Shown here piece by piece: positions 25,917-31,788 of a stretch of 64,000 nucleotides of DNA; the stretch's first letter is position 1; each line of letters begins with the position of its first letter. Origin of the DNA: Fodinibius salipaludis (GTDB taxonomy: Bacteria; Bacteroidota; Rhodothermia; Balneolales; Balneolaceae). The translations under genes and the position numbers were made by a program. The DNA is taken from positions 372,001 through 436,000 of the forward strand of contig NZ_NSKE01000001.1 in the NCBI RefSeq assembly GCF_002287075.1. Direction: 5' to 3'. A model generated the notes under the pieces. The model saw nothing but the letters and a program-made list of their open reading frames with translations. It was not told the origin of the DNA and searched no databases.

Positions 25917-26837
25917 ATGGCAGTAATTGAAGTAGATAATATTTCGAAATCGTTTGGGGATACGCGAGCTGTAAAAAATGTAAGTTTTGAAATTCCAAAA
26001 GGCCGCATTTTTGGATTACTTGGTCCAAATGGTGCCGGTAAAACAACAGCTATCCGTATTATCAACCACATTCTTATTGCTGACAGTGGTACCGTAACCA
26101 TCAACGGTTATCCCGTAAGTTCGAAAACGCAGCGCATGATCGGCTACATGCCCGAAGAGCGTGGGTTGTACAAAAAAATGAAGGTGGGTGAACAACTCAT
26201 TTATCTCGCACAACTCAAGGGATTGTCACACGAAGAAGCCCAAAAGAAAATCCGTTACTGGCTCGACCGCTTCGAAGCAAGCGCCTGGTTCGACAAAAAG
26301 GTCGGGGAGCTCTCTAAAGGCATGTCCCAAAAAATACAGTTTATCGCTACGATAGCGCATAATCCCGACATCTATATCTTTGACGAACCGTTCAGCGGTC
26401 TTGATCCCATCAACAGCGAAATGCTTAAAGAGATCGTCATTGAACTGCGTGACAAAAGTAATACCATTCTATTTTCGACCCACCGAATGGAACAGGTTGA
26501 ACAGATGTGTGATGATATCTGCCTATTTAATAACGGCAAGGCCGTATTGAACGGAAATCTGCGCGAGATAAAACAGCGTTATGGCAAAAACACCATCAAT
26601 ATAGAATTTGAAGGTGATGATGCTTTTCTGGATGAACTCCAGGAAGTACGCATTAACAACCGATCAACCAATTATGCTGAAATCCGCGTCCTCGACGGGC
26701 AATCCATGCAGAATATCCTCAAAAAAGCGATGAATCACGCCCAAATTTATAAGTTTGAACGTGTCGAACCCTCGCTTACCGAAATTTTTATCTCCACCGT
26801 TGGTGAAGATAATATTAATCCAAAAGAATTGAGCTAA
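25917..26837 (+). CDS. ABC transporter ATP-binding protein (NatA-like)
   Basis: This 306-residue ATPase has Walker A GPNGAGKTT near residue 38, signature LSKGMSQK near 137, Walker B IYIFDEPFSGLDP near 155, and the switch His in FSTHRMEQ. The C-terminal 80 residues are an extra domain (DUF4162-like) typical of exporter ATPases of the NatA type. The permease begins 3 bp after its stop. The pair probably forms an ABC-2 type exporter; the annotated NatA example exports sodium, but the substrate here cannot be read. Confidence 0.93.
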   Translation: MAVIEVDNISKSFGDTRAVKNVSFEIPKGRIFGLLGPNGAGKTTAIRIINHILIADSGTVTINGYPVSSKTQRMIGYMPEERGLYKKMKVGEQLIYLAQLKGLSHEEAQKKIRYWLDRFEASAWFDKKVGELSKGMSQKIQFIATIAHNPDIYIFDEPFSGLDPINSEMLKEIVIELRDKSNTILFSTHRMEQVEQMCDDICLFNNGKAVLNGNLREIKQRYGKNTINIEFEGDDAFLDELQEVRINNRSTNYAEIRVLDGQSMQNILKKAMNHAQIYKFERVEPSLTEIFISTVGEDNINPKELS

Positions 26838-26840
26838 TTC

Positions 26841-28145
26841 ATGAGTTTGCGTCAGATTTTACTCGTACTAAAGCGGGAATACGTAACCCGCATACGTTCT
26901 AAAGCATTTATCCTTGCTACTGTTTTAATTCCACTGGGGATGATTGCTTTTGTCGGTATCGTTATCGGTATCTCGGTATGGGACTCCGATACCCAGCAAA
27001 CGATTGGTATTGCAGATCAAACCGAAGTGCTTTATCCCCGGCTGGAGGAAATGGCTCCTGACCGTTATCAAAACTTATCTGAGCTAACCGAAGACTCGTT
27101 AAGAACACTTGTTCAGCAAGAAGAAATTGACGGATTCATCGTTTTGGGCGAATCCCATGTTGAGGGGCAGGAAGATCCGGAATTTGTATCCAGCGGTAGC
27201 GGAGGACTCAGTCTCCAAAATACGCTGCGCACTGATTTACGCGAAGTTATACGCAATGAGCGACTCAAACGAGCCAATGTATCAGAAGATGTGCAAGAAA
27301 TTTATGCAAGTGATATTGCCTTAACAACAACAAAACTCACCGAAACAGGCAAGGAAACCGAAGATGATACTGGATTTCTTACTATTGTAGGAGTTATTAT
27401 GGGGGCTATCATTTTTGGAGCTATTTCCGGATATGGGGGACTCATTACCCGAAGTGTAATCGAAGAAAAAACCAATCGTATTATTGAAGTTATTGCGTCC
27501 TCAGTAAAACCCATCGAACTCCTTTTTGGAAAATTAGCGGGCATAGGAGCGTTAGCTCTTACCCAAATGACTTTTTGGGTTGCTTCTCTACTGGGACTTG
27601 CCGCTGCGACAGGCCCGTTAGCCGGAATGTTTCTTAGCGAGCAGATGTCGAATATGCCCGAAACATCCCAAACAGCGTCGGCCCAACAAGGCATCAATCC
27701 CGAAATGTTCTCGATTCCCACCATTGAACCTTCGCTGATCATCTACTTTGCCATCTTTTTTATCCTCGGGTACCTGATCTACGCTTCCATTTTTGCGGCC
27801 ATCGGTTCAGCCGTAGATTCTGAAGCCGACACCCAACAGTATATGTTTCCCGTCATGGTTCCTATTTTTGTGGCCTATATTATTATGTTCCAAACGATGA
27901 ACAATCCTGATGGTACCCTTTCAGTTGTTGGCTCACTAATACCTCTCTGCACTCCCATCGTTATGATTACCCGTATCGCCATAACGGATGTTCCGTTCTG
28001 GCAAATTGGACTCTCAATGTTATTGATGATCGGCACTTTTATCGGAACAATGTGGCTGAGTGCAAAAATTTATAGTGTAGGTATTCTCAGCTACGGCAAG
28101 AGTACCAATTGGAAAGAACTGTTAAAATGGGTTAAACAGGGATAA
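26841..28145 (+). CDS. ABC-2 type permease (NatB-like)
   Basis: This 434-residue membrane protein has one N-terminal transmembrane helix (about 20-45), a large extracytoplasmic domain (about 46-180), and five or six helices in the C-terminal half. The motif EEKTNRIIEVIASSVKPIE is typical of NatB/YhaP-type ABC-2 permeases. It is adjacent to its ATPase with a 3-bp gap. The long soluble loop before the second helix is normal for this subfamily. Confidence 0.92.
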   Translation: MSLRQILLVLKREYVTRIRSKAFILATVLIPLGMIAFVGIVIGISVWDSDTQQTIGIADQTEVLYPRLEEMAPDRYQNLSELTEDSLRTLVQQEEIDGFIVLGESHVEGQEDPEFVSSGSGGLSLQNTLRTDLREVIRNERLKRANVSEDVQEIYASDIALTTTKLTETGKETEDDTGFLTIVGVIMGAIIFGAISGYGGLITRSVIEEKTNRIIEVIASSVKPIELLFGKLAGIGALALTQMTFWVASLLGLAAATGPLAGMFLSEQMSNMPETSQTASAQQGINPEMFSIPTIEPSLIIYFAIFFILGYLIYASIFAAIGSAVDSEADTQQYMFPVMVPIFVAYIIMFQTMNNPDGTLSVVGSLIPLCTPIVMITRIAITDVPFWQIGLSMLLMIGTFIGTMWLSAKIYSVGILSYGKSTNWKELLKWVKQG

Positions 28146-28252: not shown

Positions 28253-30577
28253 TTATAGAATATCCTTTATTTTTTGATGGACACGAGCATCATATTCATC
28301 CTGCCTGTAATCCATTAAAAACTGCCGGATTTCATCATTCATATTCTGCCCCATTCCCCGTACGATCAAAAACCGAATGCGCGGATCGGCCTCTTCAGCT
28401 AACTCTTGACCACGGTTCAACCAATTGGAAGCCGCATGGTCATGCTGTATTAAAAGCTGCAGCGCAGCACTACGAATATCATACGAATATTCACTTTCTG
28501 TAAAAAGATTGGCTTGGTCTACAGCATCTTCAACTTGTCCCATGTTGGCCAACTCTTTAATGGCAAATATAGATTGATGTCCCACCGTATCTGCCTGAAC
28601 AATTGACTCCACAAATCCGCTAAATGATTCCTCATCCATCACAGCCGTCAATACTTGCATCGATTTTTTGAACATTGGCATTTCATTAGCTTGTTGAGCC
28701 ATCGCCTGTACCGTATTAACGACCGTACTGTTTTGGGGATAATTTTGCAGGGCCATCAATCCTGCCTCACGAATAACTTGATGATCACTCTTCAGCGCAT
28801 CCAAAAATGCTTGTTCCGTACCGGATGCACCATCCGTGATATCCGCCATGGAGAGCAACAGTCCCGCCTCTACTTTAGGCTCCAGATCCTGTTTCATAAA
28901 ATCCTGTATAGCCAGCTGCAGGTCGGGATTTTCGGTATGATACCCCAATTTACGTGCTGCTTTGGCACGCTCCTCGACCGTTTCTCCGTTACGAAGTTCA
29001 CTAATTAAAAATGAGGAGGGCTTAAACTCGTCGAGTGTCAGTGTCGGATAATCTTCATAAGACAATTGCAGCGTATTAATCGTCGGCTGTACCTGCAGTA
29101 CAATAGAATCTTCCTTACCCGTAAATGTCACTTCCGAAGTATCCACTTTCCCGGGATATATCTCATACGCTTCTATTGTGGTGAGTTCTCCAAAATAACC
29201 TTGAGTAGCTTCAAATTGCAGCTTAAGCTCCCCTTCCGCTTCGTTAAAATCGTAATAAACTTCGTAAGCTACTGAATCTCTTTGGGATGATTCCGCACTA
29301 TCAAAGGAAAATTGCGGACGTTCAAATAATGGTTGACCAATATGATCATACCAAAAGTTTGCATACTCTTCCCAGCTGATCACGGCACTGAGTTCCAGCA
29401 TTTTTGTTATCGAATCCCGCATAAATACTGTCACAGATTCATTCTGCCATTCACCAATGCCCTTTTGCCAGCTATTCCATTGCTCTGATCCAAACTGCGA
29501 ATACAACGAATGGCCAAATCCTTTGGGCTGGTCTTTACTGCTCAAAATGCTGCTATCCGGCAACAACTCTTTGAAAAGAAGTGTCTGACTCAGCGTAATG
29601 GCATCGGCCTGGTTCCACTGCCGCTCACGCTGCTGTACTCCAAACCACTGACCGATTATTCCACGCATCAATTGGGTATCCAAATCTCCGCGATTCTTAT
29701 ACAAAAATATAGTTGTGGCACCCCATGATTTTTTCTCTCCGTTGTGATCTTCTAATACTACAATCTGCAGTTGTTTAAAAGGATATTCTCGCTGCAATTT
29801 CTCCTCTACTGATGCCAGATAATCTTGTGCATTCTGTAATACTGCCTGCGGATCAATTTTACTGTCGAGTGACTTTGCAACAGCTAAATTTATTTTCTTT
29901 TCACCGTAACCGGTTGATTGGTTATCAAAACCTCCGATAGCAAAAGATAAACCGGAAGCCGGCACTTCTTTTTGTGATGCAAACTGATAACGCATAGCAT
30001 CCACCGAAAGCACCTCTTCACCTACTTTTTCTCCCGTAGCCCATACCTGTATTCCTGATGGAACGGAAATATTAAATATCGTTTTAAACGTTACCTGCGG
30101 ATGATCTACAATGGGAACCCAATGGCGTTGTGCCTTTGGCAGCTGAGAACTCCATATCGTTTCGTTGCGATTTTGGAGTACCCCAAACTGCGGACGACCT
30201 GAATATCTGATATTTACCTCATACTGCGATCCCACTTCCGCAGAATCATTCACAGGGATAAACAGCGAATCATTCTGGAGCGAAAAATCTGCTGCCTCTC
30301 CATCCACCGAAACATTGCTTATATCCAGATGGGAAGCATAAAGCGTCAGTGTATCGGCGCCACTTATATTCGCCTCAACCTGATATACAGCCTCTCCATC
30401 GATGCGTAAGTTCTGGGGCTGTACCCCCAAACTAAGTTCTAAATTGACGAAGTTAAAATCCAATTTTGGATAAGGTTCATGATCAAATGACTGCGCCTTC
30501 AAATCTGAGACCATCAACATTATCAAACCGGCCAAAAAGAGAACGCGAGGTAGGAAAGCAATACGATTTCTACACAT
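28253..30577 (-). CDS. Exported M1 aminopeptidase-like protein lacking the zinc site
   Basis: A signal peptide (about 1-29, ending KAQ) precedes an M1-type beta-saddle domain (about 35-215) and a thermolysin-like region. Where active enzymes have HELAHQWFG this protein reads RGIIGQWFG (residues 305-313), so both His ligands and the catalytic Glu are gone. The third ligand in WLNEG is also missing, and GAMEN is replaced by GEKKS before WG. The C-terminal 250 residues look like HEAT-type helical repeats, as in M1 proteins. The frame is intact over 774 residues, so it is probably a selected pseudoenzyme, not decay. I chose ATG 30577 over TTG 30589. Confidence 0.8.
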   Translation of the reverse strand: MCRNRIAFLPRVLFLAGLIMLMVSDLKAQSFDHEPYPKLDFNFVNLELSLGVQPQNLRIDGEAVYQVEANISGADTLTLYASHLDISNVSVDGEAADFSLQNDSLFIPVNDSAEVGSQYEVNIRYSGRPQFGVLQNRNETIWSSQLPKAQRHWVPIVDHPQVTFKTIFNISVPSGIQVWATGEKVGEEVLSVDAMRYQFASQKEVPASGLSFAIGGFDNQSTGYGEKKINLAVAKSLDSKIDPQAVLQNAQDYLASVEEKLQREYPFKQLQIVVLEDHNGEKKSWGATTIFLYKNRGDLDTQLMRGIIGQWFGVQQRERQWNQADAITLSQTLLFKELLPDSSILSSKDQPKGFGHSLYSQFGSEQWNSWQKGIGEWQNESVTVFMRDSITKMLELSAVISWEEYANFWYDHIGQPLFERPQFSFDSAESSQRDSVAYEVYYDFNEAEGELKLQFEATQGYFGELTTIEAYEIYPGKVDTSEVTFTGKEDSIVLQVQPTINTLQLSYEDYPTLTLDEFKPSSFLISELRNGETVEERAKAARKLGYHTENPDLQLAIQDFMKQDLEPKVEAGLLLSMADITDGASGTEQAFLDALKSDHQVIREAGLMALQNYPQNSTVVNTVQAMAQQANEMPMFKKSMQVLTAVMDEESFSGFVESIVQADTVGHQSIFAIKELANMGQVEDAVDQANLFTESEYSYDIRSAALQLLIQHDHAASNWLNRGQELAEEADPRIRFLIVRGMGQNMNDEIRQFLMDYRQDEYDARVHQKIKDIL

Positions 30578-30774: not shown

Positions 30775-31788
30775 ATGGGCTCTATGAAAGCAATGCAAGT
30801 ATCAGAACCGGGTTCGGATTTTGAACTCGTTGAGAAAGACATCCCCACACCTTCTGCGGATGAAGTATTAATCAAAGTTCAAGCATGCGGTATCTGTCAC
30901 AGCGATGCCTTTGTGAAGGACGGAACCATGCCGGGTATTGAATATCCCCGCGTGCCGGGACACGAAGTGATTGGTACTATTGAATCAGTCGGCAACAACA
31001 TCACTGAATGGAATGAAGGTCAGCGTGTTGGCGTAGGTTGGCACGGTGGACATTGCCACGAATGTGAAGCCTGTCGCAAAGGTGATTTCATCAACTGTGA
31101 AAACGCCAAAGTCACGGGACTCAGCTTCGACGGCGGCTATGCCGAATACATGACAGCTCCACAAAACGCACTTGCGGACGTACCCGAATCACTTAATTCT
31201 GCCGAAGCAGCTCCACTGCTATGCGCCGGCATCACTACCTTTAACGCTCTGCGCAATAGCGACCTTAATCCGGGAGATTTAGTGGCCGTTCAAGGTATTG
31301 GCGGACTCGGTCACCTGGGCGTCCAATATGCTCACAAGTTCGGATGTGAAGTAGTGGCACTTTCGCGCGGAACCGACAAACAAGAACTGGCCTATGGGCT
31401 CGGTGCCGATCACTTTGTCGATACTGAAGCCAACGACGCCGCTGAAGAACTTCAAAAGCTGGGCGGAGCAAAAGTTATTTTAGCTACCGCTCCAAACAGT
31501 GACGCTATCACTTCAGTTATTGACGGTCTCGGAACTGACGGCACGCTGATGATTGTGGCAGCTACCGGTGAACCGATTAAAGTGAGTCCTTTTCAGCTGA
31601 TCATGGGACGAAAATCTGTTCGCGGATGGCCCAGTGGCACAGCTAAAGATTCCGAAGATACGCTGGACTTTAGTGCACTCACCGACATCACACCCACTAT
31701 TGAAACCTATCCGCTCGAAGAAGCCAATGAAGCTTACGATCGGATGATCAATAATGAAGCGCGGTTCAGAGTAGTTCTGGAAATGTAA
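30775..31788 (+). CDS. Zinc-dependent alcohol dehydrogenase
   Basis: This 337-residue medium-chain dehydrogenase has catalytic-zinc ligands in CGICHSD (Cys41) and the following GHEVIG. The structural zinc site lies in CHECEACRKGDFINC with four cysteines. The Rossmann motif GIGGLGHLGVQYA is near residue 175. The family oxidises or reduces short-chain alcohols and aldehydes with NAD(P). An ATG at 30784 is an alternative start. A 9-bp inverted repeat lies in its leader, and an intrinsic terminator lies 70-100 bp after its stop, so it is monocistronic. Confidence 0.93.
   Translation: MGSMKAMQVSEPGSDFELVEKDIPTPSADEVLIKVQACGICHSDAFVKDGTMPGIEYPRVPGHEVIGTIESVGNNITEWNEGQRVGVGWHGGHCHECEACRKGDFINCENAKVTGLSFDGGYAEYMTAPQNALADVPESLNSAEAAPLLCAGITTFNALRNSDLNPGDLVAVQGIGGLGHLGVQYAHKFGCEVVALSRGTDKQELAYGLGADHFVDTEANDAAEELQKLGGAKVILATAPNSDAITSVIDGLGTDGTLMIVAATGEPIKVSPFQLIMGRKSVRGWPSGTAKDSEDTLDFSALTDITPTIETYPLEEANEAYDRMINNEARFRVVLEM

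Follow-up and report, generated by a model that had tools for sequence, protein, structure and literature searches.

An order-wide M1-fold pseudo-aminopeptidase with a HEAT domain in Fodinibius salipaludis, tentatively read as a periplasmic scaffold

The window analysed here is a stretch of 64,000 nucleotides from Fodinibius salipaludis (family Balneolaceae, order Balneolales, class Rhodothermia; contig NZ_NSKE01000001.1, positions 372,001 to 436,000), and our subject is one gene within it, which lies on the minus strand at 28253..30577 and encodes a 774-residue M1-fold pseudo-aminopeptidase with a HEAT domain, predicted to be exported. The gene, which we call pseudo-M1, encodes an intact M1-fold and HEAT protein that lacks every catalytic and metal-binding residue tested; it is under purifying selection and is present across its order. 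That the product is an M1 pseudoenzyme seems to us almost certain. The fuller account that we build on this, in which an ancient M1 pseudoenzyme has taken on a scaffolding role in the periplasm, plausibly serving the trafficking of lipoproteins or lipids, is one that we hold tentatively, with marginally more doubt than belief.

The reading frame starts with ATG at 30577 and continues without interruption through 774 codons to a stop; an initial annotation, made from the sequence of the window, had likewise described a frame open over 774 residues, without giving its strand. All of the features that follow lie on the minus strand. Residues 1–28 (30494..30577) form a predicted signal peptide, with a helix at residues 8–23 in the structural model and a putative cut at KA/Q; the residue that would follow the cut after A28, Q29, is conserved in 71 of 74 family proteins, and we infer cleavage and export from these features. 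The M1 N-terminal beta domain (residues 40–236, 29870..30460) is supported by a fold match to ERAP1 and by the Pfam profile PF17900, reached with 27.9 bits (cut-off 25.8). The degenerate catalytic-like domain that follows (residues 237–433, 29279..29869) is recognised by its M1 fold, the window protein scoring 10.8 bits with the M1 catalytic-domain profile PF01433, under the cut-off of 27.7; a dead relative from elsewhere in the class, P0002, passes the same profile with 90.8 bits. This block has a median length of 189 residues in the family, against 223 in active M1-HEAT proteins. A beta-sandwich-like domain, assigned from DSSP of the model (residues 434–520, 29018..29278), leads to the C-terminal HEAT domain (residues 521–774, 28256..29017), which was identified by Pfam (HEAT_2, 2.4e-9; PF13646, 37.8 bits, cut-off 27.7), by modelling it alone and by matches to HEAT/ARM-type folds. 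Within it the family alignment marks out a strongly conserved stretch, residues 549–587 (28817..28933).

An AlphaFold model of the whole protein, made with a 68-sequence family alignment, has a mean pLDDT of 91.4 and a pTM of 0.83. Among solved structures it matches M1 aminopeptidases best (for ERAP1, Z 38.7 and rmsd 2.8 with 364 residues aligned, model residues 34–418), and the third Foldseek rank is held by 7edx_B, a chain of TFIID which we take to be TAF2. Modelled alone, the HEAT domain reaches a pLDDT of 94; a fold search with it (Z up to 17.9, rmsd 5.2 over 256 residues) returned only generic solenoid matches of the HEAT/ARM type and no hint of a partner.

We mapped the catalytic positions, whose roles are those known from M1 enzymes, by joint alignment with 15 active M1-HEAT proteins; these were picked for HExxH...E, so that their three of three zinc ligands are by construction. 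The segment equivalent to HExxHQWFG reads RGIIGQWFG (residues 305–313, 29639..29665), with R305 in place of the first His, G306 in place of the catalytic Glu and G309 in place of the second His, while the QWxG core is kept. This bears out the initial annotation, which had reported the same replacement of HELAHQWFG. T328 (29594..29596) is aligned at the third zinc-ligand position, a column that is loosely aligned in the family; the annotation had also noted the downstream Glu of WLNEG as missing. Its placing of the GAMEN equivalent at GEKKS was one residue off: the segment is EKKSW (residues 281–285, 29723..29737), with S284 at the position of the GxMEN Glu, so that the loss of this Glu stands. 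In addition, L146 occupies the position of the amine-binding Glu or Gln, and the segment of the catalytic Tyr is deleted.

The gene was found in 77 of 92 family genomes, including 62 of the 66 of good quality. The aligned family set comprises 74 of these 77 copies, the divergent copy of G079, the split copy of G037 and the contig fragments of G027 being left out. For the order we read 22 of the 36 matching genomes outside the family, and for the class a table of 13 dead proteins, from which the partial L137 and L217 were omitted and in which L180 and L181 were kept though cut by contig ends. HExxH occurs in none of the 74 family, 22 order-level and 13 class-level dead proteins; it is also absent from the three copies left out (the motif piece reads RGLAAQWFG in G037 and RGIAAQWFG in G027), and so from all 77. 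The claim that the zinc ligands are lost therefore extends well beyond the window, since no aligned family protein keeps more than one of the three: 49/74 keep none and 25/74 keep one, mostly a Glu in the third, loosely aligned column (E in 23/74), the first His surviving in two proteins and the second in none. Order-level proteins keep none in 20/22 and one in 2/22, and class-level dead proteins none in 8/13 and one in 5/13. Glu is found at the GxMEN position in no protein of any of the three sets, and the transition-state Tyr falls in a gap in 74/74 family proteins and is Y in 0/22 and 0/13 of the others. W311 and G313 are invariant among the 74. Chance, or an error of sequencing or assembly, is excluded, because 77 of the 92 family genomes match with a recurring loss.

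A substitute metal site, built from other His or Glu residues, was looked for by column conservation and none was apparent: no His column exceeds 35% of the 74 family sequences over residues 237–433. We rejected a hidden metal site for want of a well-conserved His in that region. In the same segment, Arg stands in place of the first zinc His (residue 305, 29663–29665) in 56/74 family and 16/22 order proteins, a recurrence that looks like a repeated choice and not like unconstrained drift.

Almost all of the 77 family copies have an open frame, so the worry that homologues might be frameshifted in most genomes is not borne out. One clearly split copy was seen, in G037, where the family gene (L057) lies in three pieces with separate open frames. 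The 15 family genomes without a match include every genome of three genera, g19, g20 and g8 (1.4–2.7 Mb). The ratio of non-synonymous to synonymous substitution rates (dN/dS) to the nearest genome is 0.105 (M1 N-terminal domain 0.114, catalytic-like domain 0.123, HEAT domain 0.082), as computed with our own Nei-Gojobori script; all pairs that include the window gene, save the two nearest, are close to saturation. A pseudogene was rejected on this ratio of about 0.1. The open frames, purifying selection and missing catalytic residues together support the initial annotation's description of a maintained pseudoenzyme, probably exported.

The distribution of constraint along the protein differs from that of an active enzyme. 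We expressed domain conservation as pairwise identity relative to that of the whole protein, using pairs 25–50% identical overall. In the active set the catalytic domain is the most conserved (1.24, with 0.74 for HEAT), whereas the family conserves its catalytic-like domain less than any of the other three (0.87, with 1.12 for HEAT), and the order gives a similar picture (0.81 and 1.25). The first HEAT repeats reach 1.42 in the family (residues 521–615, a sub-block selected after conservation was seen), and D552, Q554, L555, D559 and G586 are invariant among 68 aligned family proteins.

Across the class, matches were found in 216 of 243 genomes, many of those outside the order being other, active M1 proteins; a chosen part of the class-level loci was read. 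Dead full-length M1-HEAT proteins occur there in families f8, f9, f13, f16 and f58 and active ones in f14, f15, f16, f18 and f57, with three genomes (G312, G487 and G488) carrying copies of both kinds. The most degenerate copies seen are L193 and L194 of f9, which have lost the QWxG core together with most of the GxMEN loop. In two unrooted trees a single branch parts dead from active proteins (SH-aLRT 99 with 71 rows; 100/99 with 40 rows), and at one point three groups meet: the proteins of the order, the dead ones of the class level and the active ones. When outgroup M1 proteins were added to a tree of M1 columns (41 rows), the dead set formed one clade with support of 97/96; with the catalytic columns removed, support was 87/89, which the tree tool marks as neither shown nor rejected. 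These outgroup trees hold 12 order and 7 class-level dead rows, f9 and some divergent order rows being left out. The history that we favour, without regarding it as proven, is that an M1-HEAT peptidase of an ancestor within the class duplicated and that catalysis was lost a single time, in one of the copies.

Outside the order, the dead gene keeps characteristic company. At 11 of the 11 class-level loci with upstream DNA (L218–L226, L252 and L253, from the four families f8, f9, f13 and f16) the genes run on one strand in the order aminotransferase class V, LolA, LPG_synthase_TM, dead M1-HEAT; the count excludes the class-level dead copies of G527 and G537, and L250 is without upstream DNA. Pfam named few members directly (LolA 3, LPG_synthase_TM 3, Lgt 2, aminotransferase 1), and the rest were identified by tblastn. 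Lgt, the prolipoprotein diacylglyceryl transferase, is encoded nearby in six of the nine loci L218–L226. At L225 and L226, which match the degenerate f9 copies, the gene order is kept despite their degeneracy, and at L220:9311-10428 (G244) LPG_synthase_TM lies in two overlapping frames, a possible frameshift. As a control we took six of the seven class-level active loci, of which L245 and L247 offer only ~3.3 and ~2.3 kb of upstream DNA; tblastn with relatives (E 1e-6) found the aminotransferase, LolA and LPG_synthase_TM genes at none of the six in the DNA available. The linkage thus accompanies the dead copy.

In the genome of F. salipaludis itself LolA and LPG_synthase_TM are adjacent and stand on another contig than pseudo-M1, as they are adjacent for all nine LolA matches of the order. 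The LolA profile PF03548 matched in 9 of 30 order genomes, but it is weak in this order, so this count is no evidence that LolA is absent from the others. On the contig concerned (C12, L235:3849-13370) LolA overlaps an upstream FtsK-like gene and is followed by LPG_synthase_TM, then by genes for an outer-membrane-barrel-like protein and of ExbB/ExbD/TonB-like type; profiles named LolA and LPG_synthase_TM, whereas the others were named by eye. Between the two possible histories, we infer, as the favoured one, that the dead gene left an ancestral envelope operon in the window's order, rather than that the linkage was gained in the other lineage.

Within the order the recurrent neighbours are different. 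The usual upstream partner is an inositol-monophosphatase-family gene (HisN-like, Pfam PF00459; 31986..32759, minus strand, in the window), which was found in 52 of 66 loci and is upstream and on the same strand in 52/52. The gap between it and pseudo-M1, taken to the first Met of the open frame, is -50 to +15 bp in 40 of the 52, which suggests that the two may form an operon at such closely spaced loci. They cannot be one operon in the window, because an alcohol dehydrogenase gene on the opposite strand (30775..31788, plus, from locus comparison and Pfam) intervenes; this arrangement was seen in 11 of the 66 loci, in the window's genus and in genera g6 and g16. On the other side lies a convergent ABC exporter-type gene pair, a syntenic neighbour assigned by Pfam (25917..28145, plus), its permease present in 51/66 loci and its ATPase in 44/66. 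Neither neighbour served as a functional clue: the phosphatase gene falls just below the HisN profile cut-off (262.6 bits, cut-off 275) and no peptide or envelope link follows from it, and the ABC pair is convergent to pseudo-M1, so that no function was drawn from it. For the idea of M1-ABC fusions, no paper was found in a search of the open-licence literature.

Taking these results together, we think it probable that the protein is a scaffold rather than a hidden enzyme. The initial annotation had offered a peptide-binding or a scaffold role; the scaffold is favoured because identity has shifted to the HEAT domain and because the dead paralogue is linked to LolA outside the order, while peptide binding of the canonical kind is weakened. 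The exported protein would serve in the periplasm as a scaffold or adaptor without catalytic activity, its M1 body acting as a platform and its HEAT solenoid, mainly at residues ~549–587, providing the main binding surface. Its ancestral partners would probably have been LolA and the flippase-like membrane protein LPG_synthase_TM, which would place it in the transfer of lipoproteins or lipids to the outer membrane; in the window's order, where the gene stands behind the inositol-phosphatase-family gene, we take the periplasmic role to have been kept. A link to LolA-dependent trafficking is possible, though we lean slightly against it. More doubtful is the specific form of this proposal, an as yet undescribed periplasmic component of LolA-dependent lipoprotein or lipid export in this class, in which an adaptor with an M1 body bridges the inner-membrane flippase-like protein, LolA and the outer membrane, the HEAT solenoid having replaced catalysis as the working part.

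Several of our own results weigh against this proposal. The recurrent neighbours over the 66 loci of the order are the phosphatase gene and the ABC pair, not LolA; the gene is not beside LolA in its own order, and the Lol link is therefore inherited at best. The shift of constraint is weak in the class-level dead set (catalytic 1.07, HEAT 1.09), and in the family residues 247–320 of the catalytic-like domain, a sub-block likewise selected after conservation was seen, reach 1.22; with its conservation above average, the region of the former cleft still has some function. As for a single loss of catalysis, the outgroup was not one group (three of its seven rows were placed within the active set), the dead rows of greatest divergence, those of f9, lie outside the rooted tree, and the branch to the order is long (1.97 in the M1-column tree), so that long-branch attraction could have joined two independent losses.

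The main rival to the scaffold is that the pseudo-active cleft still binds peptides or N-termini without cutting them, making the protein a periplasmic chaperone or sensor on the model of Tma108, whose substrate pocket is reported, in a passage of PMC11266112, to bind nascent chains. The retained M1 fold and QWxG core and the conservation of residues 247–320 speak for it. However, the amine-binding Glu or Gln (L146 here) and the GxMEN Glu are both absent in 74/74 family proteins, for which reason the protein is unlikely to recognise N-termini in the way that active M1 enzymes do; the stretch with the Tyr is deleted, and the domain that forms the cleft is shortened and is the least conserved of the four. 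We consider this rival unlikely.

A further possibility, which we find distinctly improbable, is that pseudo-M1 controls or stabilises a catalytically active M1 peptidase in its own cell, in the manner of the pairs of dead and active subunits found in other families. Active-type M1 genes do co-occur, a point that the initial annotation had proposed to survey: the genome of F. salipaludis has four M1 loci over the Pfam cut-off, all with HExxH, and the three class-level genomes with both dead and active M1-HEAT copies may also be cited in favour. Yet the active-type M1 proteins of its own genome are distant, the family profile detecting one of the four (40 bits); Pfam found no HEAT repeats in the three that were scanned, and no active M1-HEAT protein was found there. 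Nor does any neighbouring open reading frame across the 66 loci carry the M1 zinc motif, the two pattern matches among neighbours being pieces of a GlgC-type sugar-nucleotide gene.

We rate no more highly the suggestion that the old site has been rebuilt for another reaction, using D277, E281 and their neighbours; it is if anything a shade less credible. D277 is acidic in 69/74 family and 22/22 order proteins and E281 in 71/74 and 21/22, and the frequent Arg at position 305 would fit such a site, but the family domain has neither the His column already sought nor a Cys column reaching 70%, and it has been shortened. Finally, that the gene is decaying and will be lost, for which the 15 genomes without a match, including all of g19, g20 and g8, and the split copy in G037 might be adduced, is very hard to credit against a dN/dS of about 0.1, frames open in nearly all of 77 genomes and residues invariant or nearly so across the order.

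Pseudo-M1 is thus an M1-fold pseudoenzyme and not an M1 peptidase; both the M1 fold and the idea of an M1 pseudoenzyme are already known, and it is useful to set the protein beside what has been described. A paper on a bacterial M1 pseudoenzyme was not among the matches listed in the open-licence literature. In the Lol pathway of Bacteroidota (LolA, LolB) the point of comparison is LolA, whose gene lies near the dead gene outside the order; the words 'aminopeptidase', 'Balneol-' and 'Rhodotherm-' do not occur in the main text of PMC11885536, on Bacteroidota LolA and LolB. Should the link to LolA be real, pseudo-M1 would be an unstudied factor of envelope biogenesis in Balneolota and their relatives.

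With the M1 aminopeptidases (ERAP1, IRAP, PepN, LTA4H) the protein shares the N-terminal and catalytic folds, the QWxG core and a helical C-terminal domain; it differs in lacking the zinc ligands, the catalytic Glu, the GxMEN Glu and the Tyr, and in a shortened domain that scores below the PF01433 cut-off. Active M1-HEAT peptidases from bacteria of its own phylum and class (L139 and L141; L183, L187 and L188) match the profile over their full length, and one of them, L139, has the same architecture by Pfam (M1_N, M1, HEAT) as the pseudo-M1 lineage. These differ in keeping HExxH-18-E and the GxMEN-type Glu, in having the catalytic domain as their most conserved part (15 proteins), and in that no LolA neighbours were found at six class-level loci. 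TAF2 is a eukaryotic M1 pseudoenzyme that has lost its zinc ligands, and like pseudo-M1 it has an M1-like body, there set within a large complex, that of TFIID, although it is a nuclear transcription factor. The aminopeptidase-like domains of TAF2 contact other subunits and DNA, according to the relevant part of PMC6220335. Yeast Tma108 is treated as an M1-family pseudopeptidase that binds nascent proteins in the section of PMC11266112 that concerns it; it too is an M1 pseudopeptidase, but acts at the ribosome. M1 pseudoenzymes are known from eukaryotes; the present one is bacterial, probably exported and order-wide, with dead relatives in five further families of its class. Three of the genomes with a dead relative still carry active copies of this architecture as well, so that the passage from enzyme to scaffold may be traced on one tree.
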